From: a virus
Virus record (IMG/VR): IMGVR_UViG_3300031974_002320
Span: 1-37,904 of that record
Direction: 5' to 3' (one strand)
Length of the DNA: 37,904 nt
Numbering within the stretch: the first letter of the stretch is position 1; every line of letters begins with the position of its first letter. Shown one piece after another: positions 31,012 through 37,902 of the stretch. Under the pieces are notes generated by a model. The model was not told where the DNA came from, did not search any database, and worked only from the letters and a program-made list of their open reading frames with translations. Both the position numbers and the translations under genes were made by a program.

Positions 31012-31074
31012 TTAATATACTGGTTTCCAGGGTTTAATCCAGTACTCCCAAAAGATTTGCTTTGCTTTTCTCAT
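31012..31074 (-). CDS. Possible 20-residue ORF coupled to the preceding gene
   Basis: An ATG overlaps the stop of gene 31074-31691 (TAATG) and reads MRKAKQIFWEYWIKPWKPVY then TAA. It is basic and very aromatic, ending before the terminator. The start-stop overlap is the same as in other coupled genes here. Too short to judge by composition; it may be a real micropeptide or chance. Confidence 0.35.
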   Translation of the reverse strand: MRKAKQIFWEYWIKPWKPVY

Positions 31075-31691
31075 TAGTATTCAAATGGAGGTGCAATATC
31101 TTCGTCTTGTTCCATACCATACCAGACGCCTCTGTTTTGCCAGTAGTACCATCCGTATTTGTCGTCAATAACTACCTCGAACTTACCTTTTGGTATGTCT
31201 ACGGTCTTCTTAGGAGCTCTTGCGATATACTTAAGTACTGGTACGCCATCGTCCCATGTCTTTTTAGTAGAGCGAGCCTCAACCGACTCACCGTCACCAA
31301 ATGCCATGTGGTATTCTGCACCTTCGATCTCTTGTGCTAATAACATAGTAGGAGTTGCGTCTGACTCATTGATAGCTGACTCAGCCATTTCTCTCTTATA
31401 TACTTGTTGTAACTCTTTGAATTCTGCTTTTAGTTTAGAACCAATGGTTTTCTTAATACCCCAATAGTCACCGAAGATTAGTGGAGCTACTGCGCCCATT
31501 CCAGCCTTTTGAACTTGGTTAGCGTATTTTCTAGCGTAGACAGATCTATCAAACCAGTCTAATGCAGCTTGAGCCATTTCCTTAGAGATCTTCTGACCCT
31601 CAATAGAGGTAGTGTTGCCTTTCACAACATCTTTGAATAATCTCTTTGCCGGAGCCTGTCTTGCCTCGTTAAGTGGTTTAATGTATTTCAT
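31074..31691 (-). CDS. Putative internal head protein with leader peptide
   Basis: A 205-residue protein opening MKYIKPLNE-ARQAPAK. The leader matches those of two other genes here (MRFIKPLNE at 37550 and MKHIKIFEDFLNE at 37902) and ends in L-x-E, the consensus cut by T4 prohead protease gp21. That resembles the capsid-targeting sequence of T4 internal proteins. The remainder is mixed, with a basic first half and a C-terminal region rich in Tyr and Trp (VVIDDKYGWYYWQNRGVWYG) and an acidic end. The protease gene is outside the window, so cleavage is a prediction. It begins 1 nt after the acidic gene. Confidence 0.6.
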   Translation of the reverse strand: MKYIKPLNEARQAPAKRLFKDVVKGNTTSIEGQKISKEMAQAALDWFDRSVYARKYANQVQKAGMGAVAPLIFGDYWGIKKTIGSKLKAEFKELQQVYKREMAESAINESDATPTMLLAQEIEGAEYHMAFGDGESVEARSTKKTWDDGVPVLKYIARAPKKTVDIPKGKFEVVIDDKYGWYYWQNRGVWYGMEQDEDIAPPFEY

Positions 31692-31692
31692 A

Positions 31693-32367
31693 TTACTCTG
31701 CGCCTGCGCCGTATGCTTCTTTTAATTCTTCAATCTTTTTGCCGTATGCTTCTTTTAATTCATTGCACATAGCCTCGTACATTTCTTGAGTTAATTCTGT
31801 TTCTTTAACTTCACCGTAACCCTCTTCCATTGCTTTCGCAGCAAGAGTAGCAACTAGTGCAGCGTTCTCTTTCATGTACATTTCTAAAGTGTGGTCTTGG
31901 TACTCATCGTTTTCATAAGCACATGCAGCCTCTTTTACTTTGTTATACCCTTCGGATAACATTTCTTCTACAGTCGCCGGAGCTTCAGCTTCTACTTCTT
32001 CTCCTTCTGCTTCTGGTTCTTCTGCAACTTCTTCTTCGCCAGCTTCTTCAGACTCTTCTTCATCATCGTCTTCATCTTCTTCTTCATCGTCGTCATCATC
32101 GTCTTCGTCGTCATCTTCGTCTTCATCATCAGAATCGTCTTCGTCGTCAATGTCTTCAACATCATCAGTATCGTCGTCAGAATCATCTTCTTCGTCTTCT
32201 ATTTCTTCAGCTGGTTCTTCAGCAGGAGCCTCAGTACCCTCTTCGCACTCTAGGCAGTTACCTTCTTCGTCGGTGCCACATGGACACTCATCGATTTCTT
32301 CTTCAGATATACCAGCAGCTTTTAACTCTGCAGCATATTCCTCGAATGATAGTATTTTTTTAGCCAT
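31693..32367 (-). CDS. Very acidic scaffold-like head protein
   Basis: A 224-residue protein dominated by Asp and Glu between residues about 43 and 137, with runs of Asp and of Glu. The N terminus MAKKILSFEEYAAELKAAGI resembles a prohead leader, and ISE near residue 20 could be a cut site. A four-Cys cluster (C28, C30, C38, C41; CPCGTDEEGNCLEC) could bind zinc. The C-terminal 90 residues are helical and end in a near-duplicated ELKEAYGKKIEELKEAYGAG. The composition fits a prohead core or scaffolding protein of the T4 gp22/gp68 kind. There is a late promoter 20 nt upstream, so expression is expected to be high and late. Confidence 0.6.
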   Translation of the reverse strand: MAKKILSFEEYAAELKAAGISEEEIDECPCGTDEEGNCLECEEGTEAPAEEPAEEIEDEEDDSDDDTDDVEDIDDEDDSDDEDEDDDEDDDDDDEEEDEDDDEEESEEAGEEEVAEEPEAEGEEVEAEAPATVEEMLSEGYNKVKEAACAYENDEYQDHTLEMYMKENAALVATLAAKAMEEGYGEVKETELTQEMYEAMCNELKEAYGKKIEELKEAYGAGAE

Positions 32368-32397: not shown

Positions 32398-33099
32398 TTA
32401 TTCTGCTATTTCCGGATCTAATGGATCGTCTGTTTTTTCTGTTAATACGTCTTCAATGTTATGGGCAGCAACTCCATTAGCGAAATATCCATCTTCATTC
32501 TCAACATTAATAGTCCAAGTGCTGAAGATTGCCTGATTTTCAAGTTGCTCGAATTCAATCGAAGTTATTTCTAACCACTCCATTACCCCATTTGTATTTT
32601 TATACCAAAGTGAATCACCAACCGCTAGATGTTGTACCTGTCTATATGCAACCACACCATCTTTTTGAGATAATAACGGGTGTTCGTATGTAAGTTTAAG
32701 TAGTCCGTTATTTATATTTCTATATGCGTTAAATTGTCTTTCATTAATAGATAGAACTGTAGCCGTCGATGTATTAGTTCCAAACTGTTCAATTGGGATA
32801 GACCATGTTGTCCATGCATTTTCCTCTTGAGATAGACCTGAATAAGACGCTGATCTAACGCTATCCCCAACCTCTATGTTTTCAATAGCCTTAAATGTAC
32901 CATCTGCCATCTCAATCATTGTACCTGCTAAGTGACATCCGCTACCGCCACCGCCACTAGGAGGTGATGTTGGAGCTGTTGTAGTAGTTGCAGGTGTTAA
33001 TTCAGTTCCCTCGTTATACAATTGACCCACCGAGATCATTTTCCACTTACTAGCGTCTGCCGGGTGTGTTACTTTAATATATGCTGTTCTATATGCCAT
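32398..33099 (-). CDS. Hint-domain (hedgehog/intein-like) virion protein
   Basis: A 233-residue protein. The N-terminal 54 residues (MAYRTAYIKVTHPADASKWK then a Thr/Pro/Gly linker) precede a Hint domain at 55-214. Block A starts at Cys55: CHLAGTMIEMADGTFKAIE with GDSV. TxxH is at T137-H140 (LTYEHPLLS). The C-terminal HN is at 213-214 (FANGVAAHN). After HN comes Ile, not Cys/Ser/Thr, and 19 further residues, so intein-type splicing is unlikely. Gly54-Cys55 recalls hedgehog autoprocessing. Position between the Thr-rich BACON-like genes and the acidic gene suggests a virion protein. Catalytic residues look complete, so autocleavage is plausible but unproven. Confidence 0.8.
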   Translation of the reverse strand: MAYRTAYIKVTHPADASKWKMISVGQLYNEGTELTPATTTTAPTSPPSGGGGSGCHLAGTMIEMADGTFKAIENIEVGDSVRSASYSGLSQEENAWTTWSIPIEQFGTNTSTATVLSINERQFNAYRNINNGLLKLTYEHPLLSQKDGVVAYRQVQHLAVGDSLWYKNTNGVMEWLEITSIEFEQLENQAIFSTWTINVENEDGYFANGVAAHNIEDVLTEKTDDPLDPEIAE

Positions 33100-33110
33100 C
33101 TCTTAATTTT

Positions 33111-33923
33111 TTATCTTATTAGTGGATCTTCTGCACCAGGATCTGCTTCAAACTGTACATAACCTGAACCAGCACCAGTACCGCTTCCAGCAGTCCATTG
33201 ACCTGATACATTACTAATCCAACTTGGCATTGCTACCTGAGTACCTGTTCCTGTATCATCATCCCAGAAAGTAATGGTACCCTCTGCTGGCGACGTTGGA
33301 TTTGTTGGAGGTACGTATGCAACTAAATATGTTTTACTAGGTGAATCTGTCGGTATTACGTCCATACCAATCAATTGAACACCTCCCGCGTTACCGATAG
33401 ACACAGTGTAACTATCTAACGTAATTGAATTAGGTAGAGTAGTTGTTGTAGCCTGAGTAACTGGCAAAGTTGTTGTTGCTAATGTTGTAGCCTGGGTTGT
33501 TGTACCAGAACCTGAACCTGAGCCTGAATCAGTCGTTGTGGCTTGGGTCGTAGTTGCCAGGGTCGTTGCCTGTGTTGTAGTTGCCAGAGTCGTTGCCTGT
33601 GTTGTGGTTGCCGCCGTCGGAGTTGGAGCTCCTGTTGTAGTCACCTCAACATTACCAGTAGCGTATTGTATGATTGTAAAAGCATCCCACTTAGTATTAT
33701 CTGTATCGTCAGACCACAACCAGTGTTGTACTTTAAATTGAGCAGATCTTGTACTTGCATTAGGATTTGTCCAATCTTGTATTGTAAAGTTCCAAGAGTC
33801 TGTTGTACCATCTTGAGCTACAGTCACCCAACTTGCGCTGTCAACATTCACCCAAGTGTAGTTGTCACCGTTTGGGTTTGCGTCTCCTGTGAAATTTACT
33901 GTTCTAGTATAAGTTGCAGCCAT
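33111..33923 (-). CDS. BACON-like virion protein with Thr/Gln-rich and GSG linkers
   Basis: A 270-residue protein. Residues 1-90 form a BACON-like beta domain (WVNVDSASWVTVAQDGTTDS; STRSAQFKVQHWLW), clearly paralogous to the start of the 365-residue protein at 34551: both share NPNGDNYTW, FTI, WTNP and HW.W. Residues about 105-164 are a TTQATTLATT linker with a DSGSGSGSG insert. The last 105 residues are a second beta domain with GSGTGAGSG near the end. BACON domains are mostly from Bacteroidetes and are thought to bind carbohydrate or mucin, so a surface-decoration role is inferred. It has its own late promoter. The leader is A-rich without a Shine-Dalgarno sequence. Confidence 0.7.
   Translation of the reverse strand: MAATYTRTVNFTGDANPNGDNYTWVNVDSASWVTVAQDGTTDSWNFTIQDWTNPNASTRSAQFKVQHWLWSDDTDNTKWDAFTIIQYATGNVEVTTTGAPTPTAATTTQATTLATTTQATTLATTTQATTTDSGSGSGSGTTTQATTLATTTLPVTQATTTTLPNSITLDSYTVSIGNAGGVQLIGMDVIPTDSPSKTYLVAYVPPTNPTSPAEGTITFWDDDTGTGTQVAMPSWISNVSGQWTAGSGTGAGSGYVQFEADPGAEDPLIR
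33432..33611 (-). repeat. Degenerate tandem repeat encoding Thr-rich linker
   Basis: Repeats on the minus strand encode residues 105-164 of the BACON-like protein: TTQATTLA units, a DSGSGSGSG insert, then more Thr/Gln. DNA units such as gttgccagagtcgttgcctgt recur. Confidence 0.7.
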
Positions 33924-34550: not shown

Positions 34551-35648
34551 TTAACCACCCAAGTAATCACCACCGGAATCACAACCAATCAGTGTTAGAG
34601 TATCAGACACTGTAACCGAATTACCTGCTAGGTTAGTTCCTGTAACAGTAACTGTGATTGAACCTGTGTCTCCTTCTCCAGAACAATCAGCAAAACCGAA
34701 ATACTCAACCATAACTGTATCAGTTCCCTGACCACTCGTGATTGCAAATTTACTACCGGTTTTAGTCCACGCATAACTAGGATTATTGATATTACTTATA
34801 TTAGCTGTATACGGTTCTTGTGTTGTAGTCTCATAGAACTCTTCGTATCCATCAACGAATACTGACGGTGTTGGTAGTTGGGTCGTTGCCTGGGTTGTTG
34901 CCTGGGTCGTTGCCTGAGTCGTTGTTGCACCAGAACCAGAACCAGAGCTAGTTGTTGTACCAGAACCTGAGCCTGAGCCTGAATCAGTCGTTGTGGCTTG
35001 GGTCGTAGTAGCCTGTGTTGTTGCTTGAGTCGTAGCCTGTGTTGTTGCTTGAGTCGTAGCCTGTGTCGTAGCCTGTGTTGTTGCTTGAGTCGTAGCCGTA
35101 ACCTCGTACTTAGCATAAAGAGTTTTATCACCTGTAATTGTAATCACATCACCAGGTTGGATATTTGCAGGTGCTTGAGAGCTTTCACCCTCTGCGAATC
35201 CTATGAATGTCATACCTGTTACGGACCATGTTGGACCAGATACCGTGTAGTTACCTGCTGAAACGCCACTAACTGTACTAGGGTGTGAGCCTACAATGTC
35301 AGATGAGTTAGCAACAGCTTGGTATGTTACTGTATAAGTTGCAGCCTCAGTCGTCGTTACCTCAATCGAGTTATCGTTATACTGTGTAATTGTAAAAGAA
35401 TCCCATAGGCTAGTCTGTGAATCACTTGTCCACTGCCAATGTTTAGCCTTAAAGTCTGCAGATCTACTAGCGCTGCTAGGATTTGTCCAAGTCTCTATTG
35501 TAAAGTCCCATTCGTCAGTACCAGATCTTTGTGAATAAGAAATCCAGCCCTGTGACGCTGCACCACTTACATCAATCCAAGTATAGTTATCACCGTTTGG
35601 ATTGTTAGGACCTGCGAAGGTTATTGTTTTAGTATAAGTTCCTGCCAT
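34551..35648 (-). CDS. BACON-like virion protein with Listeria-Bacteroides repeat and Thr/Gln linker
   Basis: A 365-residue protein. Residues 1-95 are a BACON-like domain paralogous to the one at 33111. Residues about 104-182 match the Listeria-Bacteroides (InlB B) repeat: YTVTYQAVANSSD, MTFIGFAEGESS, then PGDVITITGDKTLYAKYE. Residues about 185-258 are TTQATTQ repeats, interrupted by DSGSGSGSG and SSGSGSGA. The last 105 residues (SYAWTKTGSKFAITSGQGTD, GSITVTVTGTNLAGNSVTVS) are an Ig/PKD-like domain ending in CDSGGDYLGG. A long, flexible surface appendage or decoration protein is inferred. It is the first gene after a late promoter 18 nt upstream. Confidence 0.7.
   Translation of the reverse strand: MAGTYTKTITFAGPNNPNGDNYTWIDVSGAASQGWISYSQRSGTDEWDFTIETWTNPSSASRSADFKAKHWQWTSDSQTSLWDSFTITQYNDNSIEVTTTEAATYTVTYQAVANSSDIVGSHPSTVSGVSAGNYTVSGPTWSVTGMTFIGFAEGESSQAPANIQPGDVITITGDKTLYAKYEVTATTQATTQATTQATTQATTQATTQATTQATTTQATTTDSGSGSGSGTTTSSGSGSGATTTQATTQATTQATTQLPTPSVFVDGYEEFYETTTQEPYTANISNINNPSYAWTKTGSKFAITSGQGTDTVMVEYFGFADCSGEGDTGSITVTVTGTNLAGNSVTVSDTLTLIGCDSGGDYLGG
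34875..35096 (-). repeat. Tandem Thr/Gln repeat DNA
   Basis: 12-bp-based tandem units (minus-strand gcctgtgttgttgcttgagtcgta-type 24-bp blocks) encode residues 185-258 of the 365-residue protein, ATTQ units interrupted by GSG inserts. Confidence 0.75.
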
Positions 35649-35690: not shown

Positions 35691-37550
35691 TTACAGAGTT
35701 TTAATGTTGTTATCTTTTATCCACTTCTCTAGTTTCTCGTAAGCAGCGTTAAAAATTCTGCTTCTCTTAGTGTCCATACCGAAGTTGTTGAAGTATTCTT
35801 TCATCATATAGTAAGCTGGCTCTACCGGCTCACCGTTAGCTATTCTATCTTGAATATGTTTAGAAACTTCAAGCGCATACATTGCTCCCATCATAGAGAA
35901 CATATTGTAGCCAGTTAAGTCATTCCAGAATCTTCTAACCATTTCATAGCCTACTTTACCAAACTCCTTAATACCTTTTTTCTCATAGGCAGAAAGTTCT
36001 GCTCTTCTCTGATTATCAAATGAACCTAACCATAAAACCATGTAGTTGTGTTCAGCATCGTAAACTGGGTCCATGAATCCACCCTTAACAATTTCCTTTA
36101 GAGTAGTCTTTACCCATTTTGGATATTTAGGTTTACCATTCTCTTTAGTCCAGTTGTCATATTCATAGCTGCTCCAGTAACCTTCGTTAAGCTGATTACT
36201 TTCCATCAACCAAACTCTCTTACCTTTATGCTGTTCATCAGCAAGAGTTACCTCACTGTCCCATACTTGTGAAAACGCATGTGATGCAGTATGTGGGAAT
36301 TTAACATAGGCTGTTGAGCCTGCTGTCTTTTTTATATCAAAATACTCATCTTTAAATTTAATGAAGTCACCCTTTCTACCTGGGAATTTAGCTTCGTGTA
36401 GTGGTTTAATGTACTTAAATTGTTTTGCTTCTTTCATAGCATCAATTTCTTTTGATTTTTCAATTGCCCAATCAACACCTTCGTCGCCACCCCAGATTAA
36501 CCAGGCTACATAGCCATTATCTTTCCAAGGTTCGTCTTTATGTTCTGGCGCAATTTTAGAATTCTTTCTGTGTCTGTTAAATGCAGACATTCTCTTTACA
36601 GTATCTGCTGAGATCTTTTCACCTTTCGCTAGTTGATGAGCTCTTGCCCAACCAACTGGAGTTCCAGCAGGTACTTCGTCTCTACCGTACTTCTCTTTCC
36701 AATCAATTGCCTTCTGTGCATTTTTACCTGCAGCAGCTGGGTAATCGTTATATGAATCCTCTTCGTTTAGTACAGATTCCGGTAGAGGTATTGCATCTGC
36801 ATATCTTAGTTTTCTATATAGTTGGTTAGATAAAATGTAGTTACTAGCAAAATCTTCTAGTTCTTTTTCACTACCAAATCTACGGCCACCTACATCAATA
36901 TCATGACCTTTATAGTAAAGGTTGTAATGAGCACCTCTTGAATCCTCTTTAGTTTTAAGATAAACTATATCATCATTGCCAATATATTTGTCTGGCATTT
37001 TACCTTCAAGTACAGACTCTTTAATAATGTTATCCATTACTAGTAACTTATGTAATTCTTGACCTACTTCAGTTTCATCAGCGCCTTTCATTCTATCTAG
37101 GTGTTTCTTACCGTGGGATTTATAGTACTCGTCATGTAGATATTGAATCTTCTCTTCGTGTTCCATCTTGTTGATAGACTTTCTGTTTCTCCAAGCAAAC
37201 TTAGCGAAATCATCGTAGAAGAATGAGTTGATTAAATCGAAATCTTGAAAACCTGCAGCCTCGTCCATTTTATCTAGAAGATCTTCTCTACCTAATTGCT
37301 TATAGACCTCTTTTCTTACCTTCTCCATTTTCTCTGCATATTCAGGGTCATCGCCTCTATTAAAAACAATTTGCTGTGTTAGAGAGCCACTGATCTTTTT
37401 AACATCCTTCTTTCTGGTCTTAATTAACCATGCTGCAAGATCCTTGATGCCCAGGTCTTTAAATCTACCTTCAGCATCAGGTGCATCAGAGTGATGAAAC
37501 TCAGGAGCGCCTTTAGGCTTCTTCTCGTTAAGTGGTTTGATAAATCTCAT
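35691..37550 (-). CDS. Putative multi-module internal head protein with internal leader copy
   Basis: A 619-residue protein starting MRFIKPLNE-KKPKGA, a leader that ends in L-x-E. Three further L-(N/H)-E sites fall near apparent domain borders: 261-263 (ESVLNEEDSYNDYP), 384-386 (FKYIKPLHEAKFP) and 454-456 (NQLNEGYWSS). The third module start repeats the N-terminal leader almost exactly (FKYIKPLHE). Residues about 264-375 contain AGTPVGWARAHQLAKGE, MSAFNRHRKNS and GYVAWLIWGGDEGVDWA. This is a conserved phage domain I have seen near head genes but whose function I do not know. The last 150 residues are helical and aromatic. Processing by a T4-type prohead protease is predicted; the protease is outside the window. 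Confidence 0.6.
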   Translation of the reverse strand: MRFIKPLNEKKPKGAPEFHHSDAPDAEGRFKDLGIKDLAAWLIKTRKKDVKKISGSLTQQIVFNRGDDPEYAEKMEKVRKEVYKQLGREDLLDKMDEAAGFQDFDLINSFFYDDFAKFAWRNRKSINKMEHEEKIQYLHDEYYKSHGKKHLDRMKGADETEVGQELHKLLVMDNIIKESVLEGKMPDKYIGNDDIVYLKTKEDSRGAHYNLYYKGHDIDVGGRRFGSEKELEDFASNYILSNQLYRKLRYADAIPLPESVLNEEDSYNDYPAAAGKNAQKAIDWKEKYGRDEVPAGTPVGWARAHQLAKGEKISADTVKRMSAFNRHRKNSKIAPEHKDEPWKDNGYVAWLIWGGDEGVDWAIEKSKEIDAMKEAKQFKYIKPLHEAKFPGRKGDFIKFKDEYFDIKKTAGSTAYVKFPHTASHAFSQVWDSEVTLADEQHKGKRVWLMESNQLNEGYWSSYEYDNWTKENGKPKYPKWVKTTLKEIVKGGFMDPVYDAEHNYMVLWLGSFDNQRRAELSAYEKKGIKEFGKVGYEMVRRFWNDLTGYNMFSMMGAMYALEVSKHIQDRIANGEPVEPAYYMMKEYFNNFGMDTKRSRIFNAAYEKLEKWIKDNNIKTL

Positions 37551-37554
37551 ATTA

Positions 37555-37902
37555 TTATTTATCTCCCGTTTCTTTTTTAGTTTCTTTTGCTTTTTTCTCT
37601 ATCTCTTTAGCAGCCTTTGCCTGATCTTTCGCAGTTCTTAGTTGACCCTTCTTAATTTCAATCTGAGCCTTAACCGACTGTTTTTGGGTTTCGATCTGAG
37701 CTAGTTGTGCTTTCATCTTAGCCAGAGTAGAAGACATCTTATCTTTTACTTCCGGGGATTTAGATAACTCCTTTGCTTTAGCAGTTTCTTTTTCTGCCTT
37801 CTTAACCTGCTTCTTGATTTTCTTCTGAATCTTCTTTACGTTCTTTTTAACGTTAGGCTTCTTCTCGTTAAGAAAATCTTCAAATATCTTTATATGCTTC
37901 AT
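37555..37902 (-). CDS. Lys-rich internal head protein with leader peptide
   Basis: A 115-residue protein that starts MKHIKIFEDFLNE-KKPNVKK. The leader has the pattern of T4 internal protein capsid-targeting sequences (M-K-aromatic-acidic-F-L-x-E), with L-N-E at 11-13 as the likely prohead-protease cut. The rest is almost entirely helical, alternating Lys/Ala/Glu/Gln with KKIQKKIKKQVKKAEK-type repeats, and strongly basic. After cleavage it would be about 100 residues of DNA-binding helical protein, suited to being packaged with DNA in the head. It is the start of a transcription unit whose promoter lies outside the window. The leader similarity to the next gene supports the head-protein call. 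Confidence 0.65.
   Translation of the reverse strand: MKHIKIFEDFLNEKKPNVKKNVKKIQKKIKKQVKKAEKETAKAKELSKSPEVKDKMSSTLAKMKAQLAQIETQKQSVKAQIEIKKGQLRTAKDQAKAAKEIEKKAKETKKETGDK

Follow-up and report, generated by a model that had tools for sequence, protein, structure and literature searches.

Putative T4-type capsid-targeting leaders and a modular, probably processed cassette polyprotein in a virus akin to jumbo phages of Bacteroidota

Leader-bearing genes at the locus

The stretch of DNA analyzed here (the window) is a 37.9-kb fragment of an uncultured virus (37,904 nt, IMGVR_UViG_3300031974_002320) and not a whole genome. Relatives of its structural genes occur in Bacteroidota jumbo phages (for example phages of Tenacibaculum and Flavobacterium, and the Prevotella Lak phages), in the uncultured huge phage LR756500 and in Sphingomonas phage PAU. 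The closest relative, contig G013, is syntenic and matches most of the window genes one by one at 48-88% identity.

Three proteins encoded on the minus strand, of 115, 619 and 205 aa with starts at 37902, 37550 and 31691, begin with short leaders ending in L-x-E (Table 1). These leaders had been listed by an initial sequence-only reading, together with an internal leader copy, FKYIKPLHE, at residues 378-386 of the 619-aa protein and LNE at its residues 261-263 and 454-456. The leaders were found exactly as quoted and the internal sites also held, with the leader of the 205-aa protein falling outside the positions 35691-37902 to which that reading had assigned its finding. The start codon of the 115-aa gene lies 2 bases from the contig end, and its homologues begin at the same Met and read FLNE, FIIE, FVSE or FVLE at the predicted cut, with one FTSE. 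Further [LIV]xE places in the 619-aa protein are at residues 176-178 and 180-182 (NIIKE/SVLE), 256-258 (LPE), 448-450, 484-486 and 527-529. Homologues of the 205-aa protein carry MKYIKSINELNE/ in relatives, and ESVVNE is present inside the homologue in G013, such that the 205-aa protein is probably a two-piece cargo protein, its cleavage being inferred. The adjoining very acidic protein of 224 aa retains only a degenerate leader; orthologues in other relatives have leaders FEQYVSE and FEQFLAE, but in the clade of the window the site has been lost and reads AAE or QVQ. By analogy, and in composition alone, this protein recalls the T4 core protein gp67.

Table 1. Positions of leader-bearing genes and their parts in the window, and of protease-scaffold fusions in related contigs (slash, predicted cut)
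Feature	Positions	Strand	Remarks
115-aa protein	37555..37902	-	Lys-rich, probably coiled-coil; full-length leader MKHIKIFEDFLNE/
Leader of 115-aa protein	37864..37902	-	predicted cut after Glu13
619-aa putative cassette polyprotein	35691..37550	-	
Short leader MRFIKPLNE/ of 619-aa protein	37524..37550	-	predicted cut after Glu9
Module A	37257..37523	-	residues 10-98
Module A2	37017..37256	-	residues 99-178; helical; present in some relatives, absent in others
Linker IIKE/SVLE/	37005..37016	-	predicted cuts after Glu178 and Glu182; low pLDDT
Module D	36777..37004	-	residues 183-258; beta-beta-alpha; positioned differently in L007 and L010
Linker LPE/SVLNE/	36762..36785	-	residues 256-263
Module B	36420..36761	-	residues 264-377
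Internal leader copy FKYIKPLHE/	36393..36419	-	residues 378-386
Variable slot	36192..36392	-	residues 387-453; segment unique to the window
Site LNE/	36183..36191	-	residues 454-456
Module C	35694..36182	-	residues 457-619; all-helical, pLDDT 95
205-aa protein	31074..31691	-	leader MKYIKPLNE/; internal INE at 107-109
224-aa very acidic protein	31693..32367	-	degenerate leader SFEEYAAE
Protease-scaffold fusion L053	G013:1813-3993		
Protease-scaffold fusion L054	G007:137092-138987		
Protease-scaffold fusion L057	G003:189221-191065		
Protease-scaffold fusion L059	G001:147160-149622		
Further protease-scaffold fusion	G004:43482-45410		

Leader consensus and its correspondence to the T4 signal

Leaders were surveyed in the window and six large related jumbo-phage contigs, where they are 9-13 aa long, end in L/I/V-x-E and follow the consensus MK[HY]IK[TL]FE[QS]F[LI]NE; one leader of the capsid-targeting-like set reads MKHIKLFEQFLNE. 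Counts of bare L-x-E were rejected as evidence, being not significant in the window. With the window taken alone, [LIV]xE close to the N-terminus was observed in 8 proteins, against a mean of 4.0 and a maximum of 7 in control windows, and since this enrichment is weak it is the leader context that carries the evidence, as the sequence-only reading had held when it pointed out that L-x-E triplets also occur by chance. The leader pattern [FYI]xx[FYWL][LIVFM]xE is found within the first 22 residues of 114 proteins versus 12.6 in control windows. For [LIV]xE with its Glu at residue 13, the enrichment is 4.3-fold across the contigs as a whole and 9.5-fold in G006. In the latter contig, 26 of 133 proteins of at least 75 aa bear the leader, hence the share of tagged genes in a contig goes up to about 20%. 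Alignment of 106 leader proteins revealed MKxxKxFExFLNE in common and no relationship downstream of it; because these proteins had been selected by pattern, the shared leader itself is partly built in, and the informative fact is the absence of similarity after the leader. Among [LIV]xE sites whose Glu falls at residues 9-14, 38% have aromatic residues at both P7 and P4, as against just 0.6-2% of sites located deeper in proteins.

The internal proteins IPII and IPIII of T4 have the N-terminus MKTYQEFIAE. Experimentally, targeting depends on residues 4 and 7 of this sequence and processing on residues 8 and 10, and Asp at position 10 prevents processing while leaving targeting intact (PMC9026906). 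Counted from the cut, these four residues are P7, P4, P3 and P1, which are the same positions fixed in the leaders described here, and the consensus matches T4 at all of them (aromatic P7, aromatic P4, L/I/V at P3, E at P1). The leader of the 115-aa protein has an aromatic residue at both targeting positions, as do most leaders in relatives; in the 619- and 205-aa proteins, the short leaders carry F or Y at P7 but Pro, not an aromatic residue, at P4. As a positive control, the leader regular expression was run on T4 and gave nine hits, including IPII, IPIII, gp24 and Alt. One feature of a T4-type capsid-targeting sequence, a short N-terminal leader ending in (L/I)-x-E, is present, and it is very probable that the leaders are such sequences, although targeting and cleavage are inferred.

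Leader-bearing proteins in relatives include members of cytidylyltransferase-like, nucleotidyltransferase, ATP-grasp ligase, GNAT, LicD, PAP2 and HD families, which could conceivably act as early effectors, a role that is inferred. At the cut position, Glu is replaced by Asp in some leaders (G004:124613-125095, G004:134490-135446, G007:101621-102211), and also in that of a stand-alone homologue of module C (L037/G004). Given that the same change in T4 stops processing and not targeting, such proteins may be packaged uncut.

In LR756500, whose genome is of 462 kb, the same tag is observed, with about 20 proteins (L161-L180) starting with MKYI[KL]EYEEF[LVI]xE or similar. When the leader pattern of the window lineage was run on PAU as a control, no hit was obtained versus 4.4 expected. 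About 20 PAU proteins (L141-L151; for example 112994-113305 and 113313-113735) instead share a recurrent leader of another kind, MKT[LI][ST][KQ]L[YF]E, in many cases with ..KLNE after it, and several of them are encoded near the PAU protease and capsid genes. The leader consensus is hence lineage-specific, and the PAU leaders probably represent the same signal in an independent form.

A gp21-type protease and its likely own substrates

A member of the gp21 family was sought in the 37.9-kb window and none was found. However, PF03420, which represents this family, scores above cut-off in 8 of 20 relatives, the syntenic G013 among them. Lack of a prohead protease in the genome, which the sequence-only reading had named as a refutation when it called for a protease search, cannot be applied to the window, since the fragment stops short of that gene. 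Equivalents of T4 His85 and Ser140 are conserved in the gp21-type proteases of the relatives; these residues have catalytic roles in the S77 family.

The protease ORFs of the relatives encode 600-820 aa, with the protease followed by a scaffold-like region in which [FY]xx[FYHS][LIV]xE recurs every 14 residues, in 4-11 copies versus about 0.2 expected. Thus, the leader consensus recurs in the likeliest own substrate of the protease. Such fusions place a protease and a built-in multi-cut substrate on one chain, and PAU has only a short protease (246 aa). In the gp23-type capsid proteins of the relatives, L[YN]E is present at the likely propeptide end (HKLYE/D, HSLNE/G); T4 gp23 is cut after FGSFLTE.

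Modular architecture of the 619-aa protein family

Homologues of the 619-aa protein, the shortest of 292 and the longest of 1330 aa, are mosaics of modules, in which module A is first and module C is last wherever present, and the middle content varies even between close relatives. The slot at residues 387-453 contains another module in L001, L002 and L009, is empty in L005 and holds several modules in L004, L006 and L008. One property expected of a polyprotein, that its modules be known as separate, independently targeted proteins, is met for modules A, B and C and a DUF5824 module, most of them with leaders. Genes that encode module A by itself, preceded by a leader, are found in L026, L027, L033, L037, L039 and G001, and such genes for module C in L039/L011 and L037. 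Module B stands alone with a leader in L012/L014 and, in some phages, without one (MSKEQTY...), and the DUF5824 module is a separate gene in L022, L023, L028, G003 and G007. In L006, L042 and G001, the polyprotein opens with a module related to the neighbouring 115-aa gene. The internal KYIKPLHE is still preceded by Met (MKYIKPLHE) in L001, L002, L006, L007, L009 and L042, and likely descends from the leader of a gene that used to be separate, as inferred from its sequence.

Additional multi-module proteins with ESV.NE-type linkers were observed at G004:66117-68648, G013:31947-34103, G004:74350-76560 and G001:112324-114039, two of which bear N-terminal leaders, and they have modules in common with the first polyprotein. 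They may represent a second, perhaps a third, cassette polyprotein per genome.

Module borders coincide with predicted protease sites

Breakpoints of ungapped homology lie within 6 residues of [LIV]xE at 56 of 90 starts and 49 of 90 ends, with about 16 expected, and this excess was reached in none of 3000 random placements. In the same test the control motifs LxD, LxK and FxE revealed no enrichment, and DxK exhibited a mild excess at breakpoint ends. As homologue pairs are not independent, these counts overstate the number of events; the control motifs carry the same non-independence. A test based on gapped BLAST (35/100 and 38/90 at W=5) was above the null but noisy, since such alignments cross module borders.

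Conservation among homologues follows the borders. At the border between the leader and module A, [LIV]xE is present in all 16 distinct homologues, with the leader itself varying between long and short forms, and [LIV][NT]E precedes module C in 14 of 15, whereas retention drops to 7/15 and 4/15 at two LxE places in the interior of module C. At the border sites, L/I/V at P3 and E at P1 are retained and P2 is variable. A second property of a polyprotein, cut sites at module borders that are conserved among homologues, is thereby met. The linker ES[VIT]x?[NT]E occurs 3.3 times per 1000 aa in the polyproteins versus 0.08 overall. None of 30 internal linkers has both aromatic targeting residues, in line with a chain that is targeted as a whole by its single leader and with internal sites that serve for cutting alone. 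In the predicted structure, confidence is low in the leader and at residues 172-194, 240-263 and 375-457, while modules A (about residues 30-98), B and C have confident folds and the LxE places at 484-486 and 527-529 are in or beside helices of module C. The low confidence at 387-453 may also stem from the absence of homologues.

The claim of the sequence-only reading that the proteins have prohead-type leaders is hence supported, on stronger evidence than it had, and that of a processed polyprotein is supported on every available test, with proof by virion proteomics lacking. This support rests on the gp21-type protease of the lineage, the match to the T4 targeting residues, the stand-alone leader-bearing modules, the breakpoints at the sites, conservation at borders and not in interiors, and the location of sites in linkers predicted to be unstructured. 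The claim of two fused internal head proteins is too simple, since the data point to at least five or six pieces and to a rapidly shuffling cassette polyprotein family.

Identity of the modules

Searches of the 619-aa protein against Pfam and NCBIfam found no domain, and PHROGs gave one family of unknown function; DUF5824 was found by these searches in the polyproteins of relatives. A sequence search against solved structures yielded no match, and fold searches of the PDB with the full 619-aa model and with module C alone gave no convincing match. The model of module D (36777-37004) aligned with the N-terminal domain of the anti-CRISPR protein AcrIF24 (Z 5.1-5.2, 63 residues, 18% identity), which is below the level that would mean more than a common arrangement and is a lead only. 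In Roseobacter phage CRP-406 and Synechococcus phage S-CBS3, module B makes up the N-terminal portion of ORFs with a major capsid protein annotation, and it is also present within a prohead-protease ORF (HGTV-1) and a portal/MuF ORF (HRTV-28), all unrelated phages. Because of its occurrence in such ORFs, module B fits a head-associated domain. No module has a known function requiring early delivery.

Proposed mechanism and alternative explanations

The observations are probably best explained by a capsid-targeted polyprotein that is cut by the prohead protease, with the linkers serving as points of module exchange; cleavage, packaging and injection are all inferred. In this model, the leaders would act as T4-type capsid-targeting sequences bringing proteins into the assembling head, where a gp21-type prohead protease would then remove them after (L/I/V)-x-E. 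A single N-terminal leader would carry the whole 619-aa chain into the prohead. By cutting the chain where modules meet, after residues 9, 178/182, 258/263, 386 and 456, the protease would release five or six small proteins at the least, and these would stay in the head and probably be injected with the DNA. Cutting of the 619-aa protein at its borders is likely, but in the absence of virion proteomics or a protease assay it remains an inference, and packaging and injection of the pieces are inferred with somewhat less confidence. What the sequences themselves show are the leaders, the modularity, the conserved borders and the protease of the syntenic relative. Counting against the model are the lack of a protease gene in the window, Pro at P4 of the two short leaders, Asp at the cut position of some leaders, the occurrence of module B without a leader in some phages, the lack of a known module function that calls for early delivery, and the different leader of PAU. 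Gene fusion would have built the polyprotein, leaving the internal KYIKPLHE behind from the leader of a former separate gene. With a predicted protease site and an unstructured linker at every border, modules could be gained, lost or swapped between phages without harm to their neighbours.

Among alternatives, the one that survives best, though it is unlikely, is that leaders are removed and the long protein stays whole as a multi-domain packaged effector, in the manner of the polyvalent proteins, with flexible linkers that are Glu-rich by chance. DarB of P1 and the vRNAP of N4 are indeed packaged as very large proteins (PMC9024508, PMC5512222), and the linkers are disordered in the predicted structure. 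However, the border sites hold P3 and P1 while P2 varies, other Glu-containing motifs are not enriched at borders, and internal leader copies as well as modules encoded by separate genes exist.

According to a second and very unlikely alternative, the linkers are recombination sites and short DNA repeats (e.g. GAATCAGTTAATGAA) drive the exchange without any cleavage. In its favour, several linkers joining unrelated modules are identical in DNA, and the same 20 bases, CTTAACGAGAAGAAGCCTAA, span the leader/mature junctions of the 115- and 619-aa genes (37864-37902 and 37524-37550, minus strand), which might be a recombination footprint. Against it, linker DNA differs in codons and length (ESVNE, ESVLNE, ESVVTE, the leader-like KYIKPLNE) with P3 and P1 constant, and true start leaders follow the same P3/P1 rule. 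Moreover, repeat-driven exchange is compatible with cleavage and not an alternative to it. That the leaders are another N-terminal signal, for a phage compartment or translation control, with a coincidental L-x-E, is likewise very improbable. A virion role is indeed unproven for many leader proteins, which are enzymes or unknowns, but the leader consensus matches all four T4 determinants and is present in the scaffold-like region fused to the protease, and L[YN]E is found at the probable propeptide end of gp23-type capsid proteins.

If the reading as a capsid-targeted, processed polyprotein is true, the leader consensus lists probable head cargo from sequence alone, with over 100 candidates here, and the 619-aa protein offers a testable case in which a tailed phage produces its internal proteins in the form of a cassette polyprotein, with module borders set by the maturation protease. 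Which proteins jumbo phages inject at the start of infection would then become testable for this group. A bolder reading, towards which the balance tips only slightly, is that a jumbo clade related to Bacteroidota phages has made the T4-type targeting and processing signal into a general cargo system. With the tag on up to a fifth of genes and with cassette polyproteins, any linker-flanked module would be packaged and released, and a fast-evolving repertoire of injected effectors would be readable from sequence.

Relation to known systems

Targeted and processed head proteins are already known from T4, giant phages and P1 (PMC9026906, PMC5694885, PMC9024508). In the literature searched, with subscription papers and preprints outside the search, no description was found of the leader of these phages or of a phage cassette polyprotein with borders set by a maturation protease. 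The closest system is that of T4, where IPI-IPIII, Alt and gp24, processed by gp21 (PF03420), have the same leader shape, the targeting and processing residues of the leader consensus and an L/I-x-E cut, and the relatives likewise have a gp21-family protease with conserved catalytic residues and a gp23-type capsid protein. The differences are that the same search finds 4 T4 proteins as compared to up to about 20% of contig genes here, and that here several cargos are fused into one putatively processed chain with exchangeable modules. The T4 prohead core proteins gp22, gp67 and gp68 are also single proteins cut into several pieces by the prohead protease, but they are scaffold degraded to peptides, whereas the predicted pieces here are folded, separately evolving modules.

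Inner-body and ejection proteins of phiKZ, 201phi2-1 and SPN3US likewise belong to giant phages with many protease-processed head proteins. However, neither the phiKZ cut motif S/A-x-E (PMC9026906) nor the SPN3US propeptides, often of more than 100 aa (PMC5694885), fit the leaders described here, and no shuffled polyprotein is described for these phages in the literature searched. Polyvalent proteins (Iyer et al. 2017, PMC5512222), including the Dar proteins of P1, are similarly large, multi-domain and shuffled, and are packaged and injected. They have recognizable effector or metallopeptidase domains and often remain whole, while no known effector domain is present in the 619-aa protein; the mark of a polyvalent protein, effector, peptidase or nucleic-acid-enzyme domains in one chain, was not met in searches of Pfam, NCBIfam and PHROGs. 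Unlike in polyvalent proteins, the borders here would be set by prohead-protease sites.

Other genes of the window

Three further genes on the minus strand were observed. A 233-aa protein (32398-33099), located in the structural gene block, has a Hint/intein-like domain (Gly-rich GGGGSG-CHLAGT... to ...VAAHNIED) and might be involved in self-processing or cross-linking. The proteins encoded at 33111-33923 and 34551-35648 have alike N-terminal domains (YTxTxxFxGxxNPNGDNYTW) and long Thr/Gln/Ala-rich TTTQATTTQAT linkers, and are likely surface or decoration proteins.
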